NCBI RefSeq assembly: GCF_900110455.1
Contig: NZ_FOIS01000002.1
Coordinates: forward strand, 744,001-808,000
DNA from: Natrinema salifodinae
GTDB taxonomy: Archaea > Halobacteriota > Halobacteria > Halobacteriales > Natrialbaceae
Length of the DNA: 64,000 bases
Direction: 5' to 3'
The number at the start of each line of letters is the position of its first letter. Within the stretch, counting starts at the first letter, position 1. The position numbers and the translations under genes are program-made. The notes under the pieces were generated by a model that saw only the letters and a list, made by a program, of their open reading frames with translations, was not told the origin of the DNA and made no database searches. This document shows, in pieces, positions 29,426-45,238 of the stretch.

Positions 29426-30229
29426 TTATTTGGAGTGACCGTCGCGGCGGACCGCGAGCCAGAGGCTGCCGAGCGCGACGGCGGCGAGCGCGGGCCCGGC
29501 CGTAAAGCCCGGGACCGTCTCGTCGTCGTCGCTCCCGTCGGTTCCGTCGCTCTCGTCATCTGCCGTCTCCCCGTCCGATTCCGAGAGATCGAGGTCTAGC
29601 TCGTCGGGATCGGTGTGGTCGAACGAGTCGAGCGACTCGTCGCCGCCGTCGATCGCGACGGTCGCGGACTCGTCGCCGACGGCGATCGGCCAGTCGCCGG
29701 TGACGTCGACGTCGCTCTCGGCGAAGGAAATCGTCGTCGCGCCGGCCGGCGCGTCGTCGGCGATCCGAACGGTCAGCGTCGCGACGGTCCCCACGCCGGC
29801 CGTCCCGTTGGCCGCCGGCTCGCGGCGCTGTTCGAGCACTGCCGTCCCTTCCTCGTGGGCGATCGCGTCCGCGGTTCGGACCTCGGTGTCGTCGCCCTCG
29901 AGCCACGGGCCCCGTTCGACGGCGACGATCTCGACGTATTCGGGATCGTACTGCGCGACCAGCGTCACCGCTTCGATCCCCTCGTCGCCGTGCCCACCCT
30001 GGCTCTCTAAGACGACGTCGACGTCGACCGTCTCGCCGGGGTCAGCCTCGACCGGCGACCGATCGGGCGAGAAGAACGCGACCTGATCGATCGCGGCGAC
30101 CGATCCCGCGGCGCCGACGATCGAGACGGCGAGCAACACGGCCGCGCCGGTAACCAAGAGGGCGGTCCGGATGTCGATCGAGGCGGCCTGGCGGCGGTGA
30201 CGCGGGTCGTCGTCACGTGGCGGCGTCAT
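29426..30229 (-). CDS. Cohesin-domain surface protein with PGF-CTERM-like anchor
   Basis: A 267-residue surface protein. Residues about 20-45 form a signal segment after a basic N-terminus; residues about 45-190 form a cohesin-type beta sandwich (GETVDVDVVL, AQYDPEYVEIV, VGTVATLTVRI); an acidic Asp/Glu/Ser spacer follows, and the last 28 residues, VPGFTAGPALAAVALGSLW plus basic end, match the PGF-CTERM archaeosortase signal. The protein would be lipid-anchored outside the cell. It is a possible docking partner for dockerin-bearing proteins, two of which are encoded 8-13 kb away. Confidence 0.85.
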   Translation of the reverse strand: MTPPRDDDPRHRRQAASIDIRTALLVTGAAVLLAVSIVGAAGSVAAIDQVAFFSPDRSPVEADPGETVDVDVVLESQGGHGDEGIEAVTLVAQYDPEYVEIVAVERGPWLEGDDTEVRTADAIAHEEGTAVLEQRREPAANGTAGVGTVATLTVRIADDAPAGATTISFAESDVDVTGDWPIAVGDESATVAIDGGDESLDSFDHTDPDELDLDLSESDGETADDESDGTDGSDDDETVPGFTAGPALAAVALGSLWLAVRRDGHSK

Positions 30230-30431
30230 ACGGGTTCGTTTCCGTTGTCGGACCGGAGCGTCCTTACCGTTTCGTGAACGGAACGCGAACCGCGACCGGT
30301 CGACCGAACCGGTCGGACGGTAGAGCGTAGAAAAGTAGGGCGGCGATTCGGCTGGATGGCCGGCACCGGGCCGAGGCCCGGTCGGACGGTGTCGGTACTC
30401 ACGTCGCTCTGCGCCCGGGTCGATCGCGCCG

Positions 30432-36973: not shown

Positions 36974-37399
36974 ATGTCCACGTCCGACACCGCCACCGAC
37001 TCCGATCTCGACGGCCGCGTCGTCGACGAATACGTCCTCGGCGTTCGCATCGTCGACGACGAGACTGACGAGCCCGGCGAGCGCTACCGGTTCGAGGCTC
37101 CCGAACACACCGATATCGCGTTCGACACGCTCGAAGACGCGCGGCTCTACGCCGACGTCTACTTCGACGTCAACGGCTTCGTCGAGGAGGGCACCGGCGA
37201 GCGCGGCGTGCCGCCGGAGGTCGTCCAGTCCGGGAAAGACACCCTCGCCGCGTACCTCATCACGTGCCCCTGGGCGGACGTCAACTGGGTCGCCTCGTTC
37301 TACGGGACGACGCCGACCGAGATCGAACGCTACTGCTCGTGGGTCCGCGACCGCGCCGACGAGATCCGATCCGAAGCGAAGCGACGCGGGCACGACTAG
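36974..37399 (+). CDS. Conserved hypothetical protein, acidic
   Basis: A 141-residue soluble protein with an N-terminal strand-rich part (VVDEYVLGVRIVDDETDEPGER) and a helical C-terminus ending EIERYCSWVRDRADEIRSEAKRRG. No family recognised. CATATAC about 45 bases upstream (36923-36933) may be its TATA element. Confidence 0.75.
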   Translation: MSTSDTATDSDLDGRVVDEYVLGVRIVDDETDEPGERYRFEAPEHTDIAFDTLEDARLYADVYFDVNGFVEEGTGERGVPPEVVQSGKDTLAAYLITCPWADVNWVASFYGTTPTEIERYCSWVRDRADEIRSEAKRRGHD

Positions 37400-37649
37400 G
37401 ACGACCGTCGCCCCCTGATCGTCTTCGAACCATCCCTATTCTCCCGTCGTCACACCCCGACTCCGGTTCTCCCGTCGCCACGACCGCGTTTCCTCGCGCC
37501 GTCCGGGGCCGTTCGGTCGTCGGTATGGCTACGTCCCTCACACACGACTCTTTTCGTCAGTATAGCTATATCACGTTCCGTTTCTAGAATTTATCCTATA
37601 GTATACTATTATAAATCCTGACTATACGGCGGTGGGATCCTCCGCCCGC
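37400..37649. other. Intergenic AT-rich promoter region before the first PhoX gene
   Basis: About 250 bases. The last 90 are strikingly AT-rich for this genome (TATAG, TATACT and TTATAAAT clusters, 37560-37616), which suggests strong or regulated promoter activity. No coding frame supported. Confidence 0.5.
37609..37616 (+). promoter_or_regulatory. TATA box of PhoX gene 1
   Basis: TTATAAAT about 35-40 bases before the ATG at 37650. The same element stands in the same position before the second PhoX gene, and the sequence from there to the start codon is nearly identical, so the promoter was duplicated with the gene. Confidence 0.6.
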
Positions 37650-40283
37650 ATGGTCGAATTCACCAGGCGAACGCTGATCGCGTCGTCGGCAGCGGCGGCG
37701 ATGGGCATCGGAGCGGTCGGGGCAGCGAGCGCGAACGACCGACCTGACGAACACGACACGCCGGCGGCACCGTACATCGAGGGATCGATCGATAGACTCT
37801 CGACGACGGCCTTCGGCGCGGAGGTCACCGGCCCGTTCGTCTTCGAGACGGGCGAACTCCTCTATAGCCTCCAGGGGCCGAGCGACGACAATCCCGAACC
37901 GTTTAACGAGGGCGGCGTCGGCGTCATCGACGACTTCCAGTTCACGTTCAACGGGAAGAACGACGAGTTCGACGAGCTGGAACCGCCGCGAACCAACGCG
38001 GAACAGGGCGAAGTGCAGTCCGCCGTCGGTCAGTACCGACTCCTCGTACAGACGGGCGACGAGATCAACGGCGGGACCGAGCGGTTCGGTCACCCGCAGA
38101 CGCCGGCCGGCGAGGACCTCGCTGACGTCGTCGAGGAGAGGTACGAAGGGGTCGGTGACCAGGCCGACATGAACTTCTTCGTCCCGACGAACGACGAGGG
38201 GACCGAGGGCTACCTCTTCACCAACAACGAGACGCGGCCAGGCGCGATTTCGCGGACGCCCCTGTCCCGCGACGAGGACGGGTACTGGCAGGCCGACCTC
38301 GAGAACGCGATGGAACTCGAGAACACCGCGGCGTTTCGCGAAATCGGCGGGACGAAGGTCAACTGTTACGGCGATCTGAGTCCGTGGGACACGCCGCTGT
38401 CGGCCGAAGAGGAGTACGGCCACCCGCGGGTCGGCGGCCTGGCGACGGTGAGCGACATCGTCGAGCGCGGCAGCGGCGTCGGTCTCCGCGGTTCGAGCGA
38501 GTTCTGGAACCGTCCGAATATACTGGGTATCGAGCACGCGCTCGCGGAGATCTTCGGCGAGGCGGACAGCTGGTACCCGATGGGGCTGAGTAACAACAGG
38601 GGCACCGAGAAGATGGCTTACCACCTCGGCGCCGAGCCGGTCGACATCGCCGACGGCGAGGACACGCCGCAGCCGATCGCCGACGAGGCGTTCCCCAACC
38701 GCTACCGCTACGGGAAGATCGTCGAGATCACCGAGCCGACCGCCGACGAACCGGTCCCCGTCAAACACCACGTCTTCGGGCGGGCCGCCTGGGAGTGTCC
38801 CGAGGTGTTGCCCGACGAGCGGACGGTCTACCTGGCCTCCGACGGCGGCGCGAAGGGCATCTACAAGTTCGTCGCCGAGGAGCCGATTCCGAGCTACGAC
38901 GACCGCACGGACGTCCGCGGGACGCTGTACGCGATGAAGGCCAGCGAGGTCGGCGAGGGGCCGGTCGCCGAAACCGATCTCAAGGTCGAGTGGGTGCCGC
39001 TGGGAACCGCAAGCAACGCCGAGGTCGAGTCCTGGATCGCCGACTACGACGACGTCACCCAGGTCGACTACCTCGAGACTCACGCCGAGACCGACTGGAA
39101 GGACGACCTCGACCGGGCGCTGCGCGAAGCGGACGAGGAGGTCGCGATCAACGGGAACCGGGATTACGTCACCGACGAAGAGGTCGTCGAGTGGGCCGCG
39201 CAGTACGAAGAACGCGGCCCCGCCGGCGTCGACGAGGACCTCCGCCGGATTCCGTTCCTCGAGACCCGCGCCGCGGCCAAGGAGGTCGGCGCCAGCGTCG
39301 AGTTCAACAAGGCCGAAGGGATCGACGCCCGCGACGACGCCGAGCCCGGGGACTTCATCTACTTCGGCATCTCCGCGTTGGGCGGGTACATGACCGACGA
39401 CGAGGGCGACCTCCAGTTCGATCGGGTCGACACCGGTGTCGTCTACCGGGCGGAACTCGAGTCCGGCTACGACGTCTCTCGGCTCGAACCGGTCGTCGTC
39501 GGTCCGAACGACGGCGACCCCGAATCGATCCTCGACGAGTCGCTCATCAACGTGGACAACGTCATGGTCATGGACGACGGTCGCGTGCTCCTCTGCGAGG
39601 ACAAGGGCTCCTTCGGTCGGTCCTACCCTAACGATGCGCTGTGGGTCTACGAGCCCCCGACGTCGTTGCACGTCGATTCCGTGGCGGTCAGCCACGGCGG
39701 GACCGGGACGGCGGACCTGACGCTGTCGTCGGTGCCCGACGGCCTGGCGGGCGGTCGCGTCACCGTCTCGGTCGAACACGCCGACGTCGCCGCGATTACC
39801 GACGCGAGCTACCACGACGCGCTCGAACTCACCGCCGGCCCGACGATCGCGGACGACGGGTCGACCGTCGAATTCCGGTTCGCCGATCTCGACGCGGAGA
39901 TCGAACCCGGCGCGATGGACGTTCGCCTGGCGTCGATCGAACTCGAGGGAACCGGAACGGGGACGACGGATATCACGGTCGACGTGCACGCCTTAGACGC
40001 CGACGACGGCACCGCCATCGAACCGCAGGCCCGACCCGGCGTCGTCGTTACCGGCCCGCCGCCGATCGGCGGTGGTTCCGGCGGCCGCGCGCCGACCGAT
40101 CTCGACGGCGACGGTAAATTCGAGGACGTCAACGGGAACGGCCGACTGGACTACGACGACGTGGTCGCGCTGTTCGATTCCATCGAGGACGAGTCGGTGA
40201 TGTTGAACGTCGATGCCTTCGACTTCAACGAGAACGGACGCATCGACTACGACGACGTCACCGTCCTTTACGACGAGATCTGA
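37650..40283 (+). CDS. Tat-exported PhoX-type phosphatase with cohesin-like and dockerin-like domains (copy 1)
   Basis: An 877-residue exported protein. Residues 1-30 hold a twin-arginine signal (FTRRTLIASSAAAAMG); about residues 50-660 form a PhoX/DUF839 beta-propeller-type domain (NFFVPTNDEGTEGYLFTNNE, GRAAWECPEV, KGIYKFVAEEPIPSY, MDDGRVLLCEDKG); about 671-805 is a cohesin-like beta sandwich (SSVPDGLAGGRVTVSVEH); about 817-877 is a dockerin-like pair of calcium loops (DVNGNGRLDYDDV and DFNENGRIDYDDV). PhoX enzymes are Ca/Fe-dependent phosphomonoesterases; activity here is inferred. An in-frame GTG at 37632 is conserved in position with copy 2, so the start may be six residues earlier. Confidence 0.88.
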   Translation: MVEFTRRTLIASSAAAAMGIGAVGAASANDRPDEHDTPAAPYIEGSIDRLSTTAFGAEVTGPFVFETGELLYSLQGPSDDNPEPFNEGGVGVIDDFQFTFNGKNDEFDELEPPRTNAEQGEVQSAVGQYRLLVQTGDEINGGTERFGHPQTPAGEDLADVVEERYEGVGDQADMNFFVPTNDEGTEGYLFTNNETRPGAISRTPLSRDEDGYWQADLENAMELENTAAFREIGGTKVNCYGDLSPWDTPLSAEEEYGHPRVGGLATVSDIVERGSGVGLRGSSEFWNRPNILGIEHALAEIFGEADSWYPMGLSNNRGTEKMAYHLGAEPVDIADGEDTPQPIADEAFPNRYRYGKIVEITEPTADEPVPVKHHVFGRAAWECPEVLPDERTVYLASDGGAKGIYKFVAEEPIPSYDDRTDVRGTLYAMKASEVGEGPVAETDLKVEWVPLGTASNAEVESWIADYDDVTQVDYLETHAETDWKDDLDRALREADEEVAINGNRDYVTDEEVVEWAAQYEERGPAGVDEDLRRIPFLETRAAAKEVGASVEFNKAEGIDARDDAEPGDFIYFGISALGGYMTDDEGDLQFDRVDTGVVYRAELESGYDVSRLEPVVVGPNDGDPESILDESLINVDNVMVMDDGRVLLCEDKGSFGRSYPNDALWVYEPPTSLHVDSVAVSHGGTGTADLTLSSVPDGLAGGRVTVSVEHADVAAITDASYHDALELTAGPTIADDGSTVEFRFADLDAEIEPGAMDVRLASIELEGTGTGTTDITVDVHALDADDGTAIEPQARPGVVVTGPPPIGGGSGGRAPTDLDGDGKFEDVNGNGRLDYDDVVALFDSIEDESVMLNVDAFDFNENGRIDYDDVTVLYDEI

Positions 40284-40357
40284 GGTTCGACGACGAACCG
40301 TGGTCCGTGGTCGGATAGACGCGCTCGGACGGCACCGAACTCGCTTTCGGCCGGCTA

Positions 40358-40362
40358 TTTTT
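40358..40362 (+). terminator. Possible T-tract terminator after PhoX gene 1
   Basis: TTTTT 75 bases past the stop codon. Confidence 0.3.
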
Positions 40363-40507
40363 GCAGACCGTCAGTCACTCGGAGCGACGGCGGCGCCGAC
40401 GGACCTCTCGGTAGCGCTCCGGACGGCTACATAGCCACCATACCGGTACGTTCGCCTAGGACCGCTACAACCCACCCACCTTGGATTCCGTCTTCTTTGT
40501 ACGAATA

Positions 40508-40516
40508 TTATAAAAT
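40508..40516 (+). promoter_or_regulatory. TATA box of PhoX gene 2
   Basis: TTATAAAAT in the same relative position as the element before gene 1 (23 bases to the upstream ATG, 41 to the one used here). Confidence 0.6.
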
Positions 40517-40548
40517 CTGACTATACGACGATGGGTTCATCCGCCCGC

Positions 40549-43194
40549 ATGGTCGAATTCACCAGGCGGAAGCTGATGGCGACCTCGGCGGCGGCCGCCA
40601 TCGGGATCGGAGCGACCGGAGCGGCGAGCGCACGGGACGGCGTCGACGACCCCGACACGCCCGGGGCGCCGCGGATCCGTGGAGACATCAAACGGCTCGC
40701 GACCACGGCCCACGGCGCGGAGGTCACCGGGCCGTTCGTGTTCGAGACCGGCGAGGTGCTGTTCAGCCTCCAGCACCCGAGCCGGGACAACCCGGCGCCG
40801 TACGACACGGCGGCGGTCGGCGTCCTCGCGGGCCATCAGTTCACGTTCAACGGGAAGAGCGACGAGTTCGACGAGCTGGAAGCGCCTCGATCGACCGCGG
40901 CCCAGGGCCGGGTGCAGGTCGCCGGCGGCGAGTACGACATCCTCGTCCAGGAGGGCGACGCGATCAACGGTGGCACGGAGCGCTGGGGACACCCCCAGAC
41001 GCCCGACGGCACCGACATCGCGGACTTCGTCGGGAGCCGCTACGGCGACGTCGGCTACAACCCCGACATGAACTTCTTCGTCCCGACCGACGACGAGGGG
41101 CTCGAGGGCTACCTGTTTACCAACAACGAGACGAGTCCGGGTGGCATCAGCCGGACGCCGATCAGCCGCGGCGAGGACGGCTGGGAGGCCGACCGCGAGA
41201 ACGCGATGGAACTCGAGAACCGCGATTCGTTCCGCGAACTCGGCGGCACCCGGATCAACTGTTACGGCGACCTGAGCCCCTGGGGAACGCCGCTGTCGGC
41301 CGAGGAAGACTACAGTCACCCGCGCGTCTCCGGGCCGGCGACGGTGAGCGACGTCGTCGAGGCGGGCAGCGGCGTCGGCGTCCGCGGCGCGGCGGCGTTC
41401 TGGAACCGCCCGAACCCGGCCGACGTGTCGGGCGCGCTGAGCGACCTGTTCGACGATGCCTGGTCCCCGCAGGGGAGCTGGGCGCTGGGCGGCCTCGAGA
41501 TGCAGGCCTACTACCTCGGCGCCGAGCCGGTCGACCAGGCCGTCGGCGAGGACGGCGAGACCGAAAACACGCTCGACCCCATCGGCGAGGGGTATCCCAA
41601 CCGCTACCGGTACGGCCACATCGTCGAGATCGCCGAGCCCGCGAGCGAGGAGCCGACGCCGGTCAAACACTACGTCTTCGGGCGAGCAGCCTTCGAGTGC
41701 CCCGAGGTCATGCCGGACGAACGGACCGTCTACCTCACCTCCGACGGGGCGAGCAAAGGCTTCTACAAGTTCGTCGCCGACGAGCCGATTCCGAGCTACG
41801 ACGACCGGATGGACGTCCGCGGCACGCTGTACGCCGCCCGCGTGACCAACGACCAGGCCGCCCGAAATACCCCGCCGGCGGCGGTCGACCTCGAGATCGA
41901 GTGGCTCGAACTCGGGACGGCGAGCAACGCCGAGATCGAGTCCTGGATCGCCGACTACGACGGGATCACCCAGGTCGACTACCTCGAGACCCACGCCGAG
42001 ACCGACTGGGAAGCGGACCTCGAGACCGCCCTGGCGGAGGCCGACGAGGAGGTCGCGATCAACGGCAACCGGGACTACGTTACCGACGCGGAGATCGTCG
42101 AGTGGGCCGCCCAGTACGAGGAACGCGGCCCCGACGGCGTCGACGAGGACCTCCGCCGGATTCCGTTCCTCGAGACCCGTGCCGCGGCCAAGGAGATCGG
42201 CGCCAGCGTCGAGTTCCGAAAGGCCGAAGGCGTCGACGCCCACGACGAGGCCGAACCCGGCGACTTCCTCTACGTCGGCATCTCCGAACTCAACGACGGG
42301 ATGAGCGACGACGAGGGCGACATTCGGCTCGAGCGCGTCGACGGCGGCGTCGTCTACCGCGCCGAACTCGAGGCCGGCTACGACATCTCGACGCTCGAAC
42401 CGGTCGTCGTCGGCCCCGACGCGAGCGACGCGGAGTCGACCCTCGATTCGGCGCCGATCAACGTGGACAACGTGATGGTGCTCGACGACGGTCGCGTCCT
42501 CCTCTGCGAGGACAAGGGATCCTTCGGTCGATCCTACCCCAACGACGCGCTGTGGGTCTACGAGCCCCCGACGTCGCTGCACGTCGACTCCGTCGCGGTC
42601 GACCACGGCGGGACGGCGGCCGTCGATCTGACGCTGTCGTCGGTCCCGGACGGCCTGGCGGGCGGTCGCGTCACCGTCTCGGTCGAGCACGCCGACGTCG
42701 CCGCGATCACCGACGCGAGCTATCACGACGCGCTCGAACTCACCGCCGGCCCGACGATCGCAGACGACGGCTCGGCCGTCGAGTTCCAGTTCGCCGATCT
42801 CGACGACGAGATCGAACCCGGCGCGATGGACGTCACGCTCGCGTCGATCGAACTCGAGGGGACCGGCACCGGAACGACGGATATTACGGTCGACGTCCGC
42901 GCGTTGGACGACGACGACGGCGCCGCCATCGAACCGCAGTCCCGGCCAGGCGTGGTCGTCACCGGTCCGTCGCCGATCGGCGGGGGCTCCAGCGGCCGTC
43001 CGCCGACCGACCCCGACGGCGACGGCCTGTACGAGGACGTCAACGGCAACGGTCGGCTCGACTACGACGACGTCGTCACCCTGTTCGACCACATGGACGA
43101 CGACTCGACGACCCTCGCCGTCGACTACTACGACTTCAACGAGAACGGGCGTATCGACTACGACGACATCACCGACCTCTACGACGACCTCTGA
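40549..43194 (+). CDS. Tat-exported PhoX-type phosphatase with cohesin-like and dockerin-like domains (copy 2)
   Basis: An 881-residue tandem paralogue of the preceding gene with the same architecture: Tat signal (FTRRKLMATSAAAAIG), PhoX/DUF839 domain (about residues 50-665), cohesin-like domain (about 675-810; SSVPDGLAGGRVTVSVEH identical to copy 1) and dockerin-like calcium pair (DVNGNGRLDYDDVVTLF, DFNENGRIDYDDITDLY). The C-terminal half is far more similar to copy 1 at the DNA level than the N-terminal half. Another ATG at 40531 would add six residues, with the same situation in copy 1. Four bases separate its stop from the next start, suggesting one operon with the anchor gene. Confidence 0.88.
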   Translation: MVEFTRRKLMATSAAAAIGIGATGAASARDGVDDPDTPGAPRIRGDIKRLATTAHGAEVTGPFVFETGEVLFSLQHPSRDNPAPYDTAAVGVLAGHQFTFNGKSDEFDELEAPRSTAAQGRVQVAGGEYDILVQEGDAINGGTERWGHPQTPDGTDIADFVGSRYGDVGYNPDMNFFVPTDDEGLEGYLFTNNETSPGGISRTPISRGEDGWEADRENAMELENRDSFRELGGTRINCYGDLSPWGTPLSAEEDYSHPRVSGPATVSDVVEAGSGVGVRGAAAFWNRPNPADVSGALSDLFDDAWSPQGSWALGGLEMQAYYLGAEPVDQAVGEDGETENTLDPIGEGYPNRYRYGHIVEIAEPASEEPTPVKHYVFGRAAFECPEVMPDERTVYLTSDGASKGFYKFVADEPIPSYDDRMDVRGTLYAARVTNDQAARNTPPAAVDLEIEWLELGTASNAEIESWIADYDGITQVDYLETHAETDWEADLETALAEADEEVAINGNRDYVTDAEIVEWAAQYEERGPDGVDEDLRRIPFLETRAAAKEIGASVEFRKAEGVDAHDEAEPGDFLYVGISELNDGMSDDEGDIRLERVDGGVVYRAELEAGYDISTLEPVVVGPDASDAESTLDSAPINVDNVMVLDDGRVLLCEDKGSFGRSYPNDALWVYEPPTSLHVDSVAVDHGGTAAVDLTLSSVPDGLAGGRVTVSVEHADVAAITDASYHDALELTAGPTIADDGSAVEFQFADLDDEIEPGAMDVTLASIELEGTGTGTTDITVDVRALDDDDGAAIEPQSRPGVVVTGPSPIGGGSSGRPPTDPDGDGLYEDVNGNGRLDYDDVVTLFDHMDDDSTTLAVDYYDFNENGRIDYDDITDLYDDL

Positions 43195-43198
43195 GCCG

Positions 43199-44013
43199 AT
43201 GGCACGGCACGACGCTGCTTCGGCGACTCGAGGGCAAACGCGGACGACCGAACCCGACTCGGACCCGGACCGTCGGCGACGAGCGCACGACCGTCGATCA
43301 CGATCCCGGTCGCGACGGTGGCGCCGGCCCGCCGCGGCGCTGCTCGTCGCGCTCGCGGTCGGTCTGGCGGCCGTCCCGATCGGTCCGGCGGCGGCCGCGA
43401 GCGGCGGTGCGGACACCGACGCCGCGGGAGCCGTGACCGCGACCACGACGGCCACCGAACCAAGCCTCATCGTCGACGACGCGACCGTCGAACCCGGTGA
43501 GACGGCGACCCATCGGCTCGCGCTCACCGACGCGCCGGACGGGTTGGCCGGCTTCGAACTCACCGTCGAGCTTTCAGGCGACGACGGAACCGCAACCGTC
43601 GCGAACGCCAGCTACCCCGACGAGTACGGGATGACGACCGATCCCATCGTGAGCGCCGACGAGCATCGATCACCGTCGAAGCCGTCGACCTCGGCGACGA
43701 GGTGACGCCTGGCGCGACCGACGTCACGCTCGCGACGGTCGAGGTCAACGCGACCGATGCCGGCTCGGCGACGCTGGACGTGACGGACGTCCAAATCGAC
43801 GACGACAGCGGCGACGCGGTGGTCCCGTCGATCGAGGCGGGGACGCTGACCGTCGGCGACGGCGGAAACGGATCGCAGAGCGACGGCGCGGAGTCGGACG
43901 ACGGAGCCGACGGTGACGGCGGGGCCGATGCGGAGTCCGTTCCCGGCTTCGCCGCCGGCGCTGCACTCGCCGCGCTCGCGGCCCTCGTGATCACCCTGTT
44001 CGCGCGGCGCTAA
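43199..44013 (+). pseudogene. Cohesin-like PGF-CTERM surface anchor, broken by a one-base frameshift
   Basis: The first frame (from 43199) has a basic N-terminus and a signal peptide (about residues 45-67), then TDAPDGLAGFELTVELSG, which is homologous to the cohesin-like domain of the two PhoX proteins. It breaks near 43661; reading resumes one base out of phase as ASITVEAVDLGDEVTPGATDVTLA, again matching the cohesin C-terminus, then an acidic spacer and VPGFAAGAALAALAALVI plus RR, a PGF-CTERM anchor. One lost base restores the 271-residue protein. It could be an inactivating mutation, programmed shift or assembly error. Confidence 0.8.
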
Positions 44014-44224: not shown

Positions 44225-45238
44225 ATGATCGAGGTTCTCGGACTGCTCGCGCTCGCCGCCGCCGGTACGGCGGTCGTCTGGAAGGGCAGCGTCTGGCTCG
44301 AGGACTCCGCGAACGCTCTCGCGGCCAGCTACGGCCTGCCGATGGTCGTCCAGGGAGCGGTCGTCGCCGCCGCGGGCTCGAGCATGCCCGAACTGGCGAG
44401 CGTGCTGCTCGCGACGCTGCTGCACGGCGAGTTCGAGCTCGGCGTTGGGTCGATCGTCGGCTCGGCGGTATTCAACCTTCTCGTGATCCCCGGCATGGCG
44501 GTGGTCTACGGCGGCGGGATCGACACGACTCGCGAACTAGTTTACAAGGAGGCGCTGTTCTACATGCTCGCCGTCGCGACGCTGCTGTTGACGTTTTCGC
44601 TGGCGGTCATCTACAACCCGGTCGACCGAGCCGACACACTCGTCCGCGGGACCGTCTCGCGACAGCTCGCGCTGGTCCCGATCGTACTGTACGGGCTCTA
44701 CCTGTTCACCCAGTATCTCGATGCCAGGGGCGCCGACGTGACGGCCGATACCTCGGTCGACCGCGCTCGCTCCTGGCTCTGGTTCGGCCTCGGCCTGGTG
44801 TTCATCATCGGGGGCGTGGAGGGCCTGGTCCGGGCGGCGATCGGACTCGGTGACGCCTTCGGGACGCCCTCGTTCCTCTGGGGGATGACTGTCGTCGCGG
44901 CCGGCTCGAGCCTACCCGACACGTTCGTCAGTATGGCGGCCGCGCAGGCCGATCGGCCGACGGTAACGTTGGCGAACGTCTTGGGAAGCAACACGTTCGA
45001 CTTACTCGTCGCCATTCCCGTCGGGGTGCTCGCAGCGGGGTCGCTGACGGTCACCTTCTCACACGTCGTCCCGATGATCGCTTTCCTAATTGCCGCGACG
45101 ATCTTCTTCTTCGCGATTTCGCGGACCGGAATGTATCTCTCCCGCCGGGAGGGGTGGGCGCTGCTCGCGCTGTACACGGCGTTCGTCTGCTGGCTGCTCC
45201 TCGAGAGTCTCCGGATCACCAGCGTCCTCGAACTCTGA
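44225..45238 (+). CDS. Sodium/calcium exchanger family protein (CaCA)
   Basis: A 337-residue membrane transporter with about ten helices in two inverted repeats. Each repeat has its alpha motif: GSSMPELASVL with GSAVFNLLVIPG near residues 55-90, and GSSLPDTFVSM with GSNTFDLLVAIPV near residues 230-260. The paired acidic residues (Glu and Asp) of these motifs bind the cation. Family members exchange Ca or other cations for Na; direct calcium specificity is inferred. Its position beside calcium-binding PhoX proteins may or may not be meaningful. Confidence 0.92.
   Translation: MIEVLGLLALAAAGTAVVWKGSVWLEDSANALAASYGLPMVVQGAVVAAAGSSMPELASVLLATLLHGEFELGVGSIVGSAVFNLLVIPGMAVVYGGGIDTTRELVYKEALFYMLAVATLLLTFSLAVIYNPVDRADTLVRGTVSRQLALVPIVLYGLYLFTQYLDARGADVTADTSVDRARSWLWFGLGLVFIIGGVEGLVRAAIGLGDAFGTPSFLWGMTVVAAGSSLPDTFVSMAAAQADRPTVTLANVLGSNTFDLLVAIPVGVLAAGSLTVTFSHVVPMIAFLIAATIFFFAISRTGMYLSRREGWALLALYTAFVCWLLLESLRITSVLEL

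Follow-up and report, generated by a model that had tools for sequence, protein, structure and literature searches.

In the haloarchaeal genome of Natrinema salifodinae, two tandem genes of the PhoX phosphatase family, whose products each end in a cohesin and a dockerin domain, are followed by a small gene for an anchored cohesin, and this locus probably represents a calcium-dependent, surface-tethered phosphatase module for phosphorus scavenging. It lies in a stretch of 64,000 nucleotides (nt) from assembly GCF_900110455.1 (contig NZ_FOIS01000002.1, positions 744,001 to 808,000, forward strand; hereafter the window), and a locus search found its nearest named relatives among Natrinema species. 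In the proposed mechanism, the PhoX enzymes would be exported folded via the twin-arginine translocation (Tat) route, and their C-terminal dockerin, with its two calcium loops, would plug into a type I-like cohesin. The first socket in an intact system would be the single cohesin of the downstream small PGF-CTERM-type membrane protein, and because every enzyme bears its own cohesin, further dockerin-bearing enzymes could dock onto the first and build up a short chain or cluster at the cell surface. Binding, calcium dependence, chain formation, surface location and catalytic activity of the module are inferred; its parts are as follows.

37650–40283, plus strand: PhoX1, 877 amino acids (aa), Tat-type signal, PhoX domain, cohesin and dockerin (Pfam and sequence)
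39654–40055, plus strand: PhoX1 cohesin domain (85% identity to the modelled PhoX2 tail; fold by homology)
40092–40280, plus strand: PhoX1 dockerin domain, two calcium-loop repeats (Dockerin_1 19.9 bits in a whole-genome search, cut-off 22.9)
40549–43194, plus strand: PhoX2, 881 aa, architecture as PhoX1 (Pfam and sequence)
42565–42966, plus strand: PhoX2 cohesin domain (AlphaFold2 model; VIA Z 16.4 to 6kgc_A)
43003–43191, plus strand: PhoX2 dockerin domain (model helices 167–176 and 199–207; profile matches to 1daq and 2mte)
43199–44013, plus strand: anchored cohesin gene, frameshifted near 43663 (read in frame 2 up to that point and in frame 1 beyond it; intact in relatives)
43930–44010, plus strand: PGF-CTERM-like sorting signal, with VPGF, a hydrophobic stretch and RR (sequence; TIGR04126 11.5 bits, below cut-off)

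An earlier reading of the same DNA (the first-pass annotation) had described two tandem Tat-exported PhoX genes, each with a cohesin-like domain and a dockerin-like calcium pair, and this description is borne out by PF05787, the twin-arginine starts, the fold and the repeats. PF05787 scores 78 bits for PhoX1 and 95 bits for PhoX2 (Pfam cut-off 24), and both proteins begin with the twin-arginine motif MVEFTRRxLxA. PhoX enzymes have been described as Tat-exported, with a thiolate iron ligand, two Fe3+ and three Ca2+ (PMC4223295). The active-site comparison covered two positions of 3zwu, Cys179 and E273: the cysteine is kept in the PhoX core as C238 and the glutamate as E383, both invariant in alignment A6. 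By domain score and these kept positions the window proteins are assigned to the PhoX family, and phosphatase activity would be expected of them. They share with bacterial PhoX (3zwu/4a9v) the Tat-type signal and the conserved core with the iron-ligand cysteine position, and differ in bearing an additional C-terminal cohesin and dockerin. This tail, 209 aa long in each protein and 85% identical between the two, is also absent from PhoX on plasmids of Haladaptatus, Natronosalvus and Halocatena; one tail-less PhoX relative is adjoined by phoU/pst genes.

The assignment of the all-beta domain to the cohesins rests on fold, because the Pfam cohesin family PF00963 fails to reach the PhoX and anchor domains. 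It gives no match over its cut-off in the PhoX tails or the anchor of the window, and it matches only two of 37 anchors (best E 0.0014). A sequence search of the PDB with the single PhoX2 protein returned nothing at E 0.1, and a search with an anchor-cohesin profile returned one chance match only, so that a fold search was required. The AlphaFold2 model of the PhoX2 tail, built on an alignment of 47 sequences, has a predicted local distance difference test score (pLDDT) of 89, and its first 136 residues superimpose on the type I cohesin 6kgc_A with 131 aligned residues and a root-mean-square deviation of 1.9 (Z 16.4). All 50 matches listed for the PhoX tail are cohesins, including the archaeal cohesin 2xdh (Z 16.2). 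The anchor cohesin of an intact relative, locus L079, was modelled with a pLDDT of about 97 and gave Z 15.9 to cohesin 5nrm_A. Modelled fold, at Z values of about 16, thus places the cohesin-like domains of PhoX and of the L079 anchor with solved cohesins, though PF00963 misses them, and both are best described as predicted type I-like cohesins. Genome-wide, a search for this tail family found only three cohesins.

The dockerin-like ends proposed in the first-pass annotation hold up as well. Each PhoX protein ends in two calcium-loop repeats, DVNGNGRLDYDD ... DFNENGRIDYDD, in which the pattern DxNxNGxxDxxD occurs twice and the calcium positions are nearly invariant (D at 1, 9 and 12; D or N at 3 and 5). 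In the PhoX2 tail model each loop is followed by a helix, as listed above, which is the predicted arrangement of a type I-like dockerin. The window copies themselves fall below the Dockerin_1 (PF00404) cut-off, with 11.6 and 12.5 bits in whole-protein searches and up to 19.9 bits in the genome search. All 31 family members match the model, however, and the best of them pass the cut-off (L074, 25.8 bits; L048, 23.3 bits), while more distant tail relatives reach 34 bits. A dockerin profile matches the solved dockerins 1daq (E 0.003) and 2mte, and other EF-hands about equally (2m7n, E 0.0018). As the window copies score below the Pfam and PGF-CTERM model cut-offs, it is fold, relatives and context, and not these models, that support the domain assignments. 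In both repeats Tyr-Asp occupies loop positions 10–11, a symmetry that by analogy may resemble the dual binding mode of clostridial dockerins. Elsewhere in the genome, a weak dockerin-like end on a second alkaline phosphatase-like open reading frame (ORF; G000:C4:520196-520303, minus strand) was set aside as too weak, with one repeat and 16.5 bits.

The same gene arrangement recurs in dozens of species, and chance is therefore not its explanation. The tail family was matched in 57 of 125 family genomes, mostly exactly twice, once in the PhoX tail and once in the neighbouring anchor. In 39 of 40 family loci the anchor lies directly downstream of the tailed PhoX, mostly with a 4-nt overlap (ATGA) or a gap of 3–4 nt. 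The order is kept in most named relatives (Natrinema, Haloarcula, Halorubrum, Halorientalis, Halovivax and others), and tailed PhoX with anchor also occurs on a Salarchaeum plasmid. PhoX identity was verified directly in the 40 family loci and in the named-relative loci. Across sets, the survey of haloarchaeal genomes suggested at the outset thus yielded 52 distinct loci with both the PhoX-cohesin-dockerin gene and the anchored cohesin gene. The presence of the anchor gene tracks the presence of the tail on PhoX: none of five loci with tail-less PhoX (L161–L165) has an anchor, and the probability that all five would fall among the 11 anchor-less of 63 loci is about 7e-5 (calculated by hand, uncorrected for relatedness).

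The tail is also found on other enzymes. PhoX is by far its commonest bearer, with lengths of about 870–1010 aa dominating the list of tailed proteins, and tails likewise occur on PhoD (11 loci), 5'-nucleotidase (L108 and L188), glycerophosphodiesterase (L101), SNase-type nucleases (five loci) and choice-of-anchor I proteins (six loci); one nuclease (L109) and one choice-of-anchor I protein (L092) were assigned by similar length and tail only. Genome G304 combines tailed PhoX, PhoD, 5'-nucleotidase and choice-of-anchor I protein with a single anchor, which stands beside PhoX; G396 has three tailed enzymes and G226, G202, G240 and G386 two each, again with one anchor per genome and always beside PhoX. 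In more remote members of the family the tail is attached to PKD surface proteins, a cellulase, a protease and other proteins, and is therefore not exclusive to phosphorus enzymes; that theme is limited to the nearest tail subfamily. Within this subfamily, a wider assembly can be put forward tentatively, with rather less confidence than the PhoX module itself: a "phosphosome" in which PhoX, PhoD, 5'-nucleotidase, glycerophosphodiesterase and nuclease might be chained by the double-ended tag and hung from the single PhoX-adjacent anchor.

Taken together, the computations support the domain identities, the gene order, its conservation and the cargo range, and a cohesin recognised by fold, a dockerin recognised by profile and relatives, and a conserved adjacency that tracks the tail provide strong circumstantial support for docking. 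Several observations nevertheless weigh against the tethered module, beginning with the anchor gene of the window. It had been described as a third gene four bases downstream, with a homologous cohesin and a PGF-CTERM anchor; it does begin 4 nt beyond the stop codon of PhoX2 and does encode these parts, but not in one open frame. Its start and the first half of the cohesin are read in frame 2 (43199–43705); the rest of the cohesin, with the PGF-CTERM-like terminus SVPGFAAGAALAALAALVITLFARR, is read in frame 1, between about 43660 and 44013, and a net loss of one base near 43663 separates the two. The gene is a single intact frame in all 39 aligned relatives, which makes programmed frameshifting unlikely, and this explanation was rejected. 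The second half of the window copy is under purifying selection (nonsynonymous divergence, dN, about 0.22; synonymous divergence, dS, 0.51–0.59, against the nearest two relatives), and the frameshift is therefore either recent or an assembly error. Whether mutation or assembly error, it makes anchoring in the sequenced strain uncertain. At the C-terminus the PGF motif, hydrophobic stretch and basic RR end are visible, and TIGR04126 (PGF-CTERM) scores 11.5 bits in the window and 11.5–17.7 bits overall, below its cut-off of 24.5. Apart from this missed frameshift, the domain and gene-order observations of the first-pass annotation are sound.

The remaining points concern the partner of the dockerin. 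A fused AlphaFold2 model of dockerin and anchor cohesin (L079 read-through, with the two genes in frame and the stop as a residue) reached a predicted template modelling score (pTM) of 0.54, to be compared with our estimates of about 0.48–0.50 if the domains are independent and about 0.67 if they are docked; no docking was predicted in this model, a weak test with few paired rows and no calcium. Partial Mantel values over 52 loci were only 0.13 between dockerin and anchor cohesin, against 0.45 between dockerin and PhoX cohesin and 0.52 between the two cohesins, and six loci have a tailed PhoX without an adjacent anchor. The co-variation and the anchor-less loci agree with self-assembly without the anchor, in which the dockerin would bind a cohesin on its own PhoX chain or on a sibling molecule, as soluble oligomers or as an internal clasp, and the anchor would bind another partner. 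Both halves are present on every tailed PhoX, and the PhoX2 tail alone has a pTM of 0.70, higher than the roughly 0.61 that we estimate for unlinked domains. The co-variation within one chain may, however, merely mirror shared history, and the tracking of tail by anchor, with the two genes often overlapping, speaks against self-assembly; on balance this alternative seems unlikely, though it is the strongest of those considered. Neither the fused model nor the co-variation tells which cohesin the dockerin takes. The earlier proposal was that the phosphatase dockerins dock to the anchor cohesin or to each other's cohesins; as an interpretation it is plausible, and strengthened by the conservation, with co-variation favouring the PhoX cohesin over that of the anchor.

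It is distinctly improbable that the tail is a generic calcium-stabilised module for surface adhesion or stability, binding S-layer, glycan or matrix. Cohesin folds and EF-hand-like repeats can serve other roles, the window copies lie below the Pfam cut-offs, and PKD surface proteins carry related tails; against this, dockerin genes are recurrently paired with separate cohesin genes, and scaffoldin-like proteins with 5–11 cohesins stand beside dockerin-tailed glycosidases and employ, with them, the same two families. Slighter still is the chance that the dockerins are served by another cohesin of the window, about 7 kb off (29426–30301, minus strand), which is intact, carries a genuine PF00963 domain (35–37 bits, 35.4 among these scores) and has a VPGF-type membrane end: it was rejected as the partner because PF00963 proteins are near-universal in the family (111 of 125 genomes, many without these dockerins, versus 57 of 125 for the tail family) and hence independent of these dockerins, and the cohesin profiles of the PhoX/anchor system miss it.

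Two neighbours of the PhoX genes deserve mention. Immediately upstream, a gene for a protein of 141 aa with no Pfam family and no obvious signal peptide (36974–37399, plus strand) adjoins PhoX, tailed or not, in 75 of 76 loci and is found in none of 11 PhoD loci; its product is perhaps a PhoX maturation or Tat-export partner. Downstream of the putatively calcium-using module lies a sodium/calcium exchanger (44225–45238, plus strand; PF01699, 151 bits), and one is found within a few kilobases downstream in a number of relatives too.

Other cohesin clusters were encountered among the genomes. Cellulosome-like haloarchaeal loci carry 5–11 cohesins on one enzyme of glycoside hydrolase family 5 (GH5), exemplified by a GH5 cellulase with eight tandem cohesins (L173:3-18258), one with at least five (L172:3-19999) and a 2104-aa ORF with about ten cohesin matches (G008:C1:1624709-1630391). 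A small single-cohesin gene lies nearby, along with several ORFs that end in dockerins, GH5, GH9 and GH10 enzymes among them; the papers searched yielded no account of cohesins from these organisms. In a second, unrelated-looking cohesin–dockerin cluster (L166:6165-12431, minus strand, and neighbours; L168–L169), 14 Pfam cohesins and a PGF-CTERM-like terminus are combined in one protein of 2089 aa, which is flanked by many proteins with classical dockerin ends (PGDVDGDGQVTSLDATKTQQ...). Cohesin–dockerin tails with adjacent cohesin-like stretches also appear in a Thermoproteaceae metagenome-assembled genome (L116, L117), where they may reflect a binning error or transfer.

Most of what is known of cohesin–dockerin assembly comes from cellulose degradation. 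With the bacterial cellulosome (1ohz, 6kgc) the present locus shares the cohesin fold (Z about 16), the C-terminal dockerin of the enzyme with its two calcium-loop repeats and a separate anchored cohesin protein. It differs in its phosphatase cargo, where cellulosomes bear glycosidases, in the presence of both halves on a single enzyme, in its salt-loving archaeal host, and in an anchor that combines a single cohesin with an archaeal C-terminal sorting signal; a multi-cohesin scaffoldin, one criterion for a cellulosome, was not found in the PhoX locus. The noncellulosomal Archaeoglobus fulgidus cohesin 2xdh, likewise archaeal and without cellulose context, is among the best fold matches (Z 16.2 and 15.7). 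Noncellulosomal archaeal cohesins and dockerins (Peer et al. 2009, as cited in PMC9012536) include at least some reported there, from earlier work, to bind; in contrast, the present system is a conserved two-gene module of phosphatase and anchor with a cargo theme. Genomes of anaerobic methanotrophic archaea (ANME) are rich in cohesins and dockerins (PMC5244752) of the same broad family (PMC9012536, PMC5244752), and ANME and methanogen loci also bear the present tail (L113–L115, L118, L122). The ANME cargo described in those papers consists mainly of ABC-transporter binding proteins and S-layer proteins, unlike the phosphorus-acquisition enzymes described here. A comparison of haloarchaeal cellulose use makes no mention of cohesin or dockerin (PMC10267330), and type I dockerins in haloarchaeal mannanases were annotated as substrate-binding (PMC10963439). 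The open-licence literature searched contained no publication on phosphatase cohesin–dockerin systems, in line with the first-pass annotation, which knew of no archaeal version built on phosphatases; archaeal cohesins and dockerins themselves are known. What sets the locus apart from known cohesin–dockerin assemblies is the phosphatase cargo, the double-ended enzyme and the one-cohesin archaeal anchor.

What archaeal cohesins and dockerins do has been termed unknown or unclear (PMC9012536, PMC5244752). A small, conserved and self-contained pair of enzyme and anchor would offer them a concrete and testable function in culturable organisms, and a ready supply of salt-stable plug-and-socket parts. 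If the wider phosphosome is real, it would allow organic phosphorus to be stripped stepwise at the cell surface.

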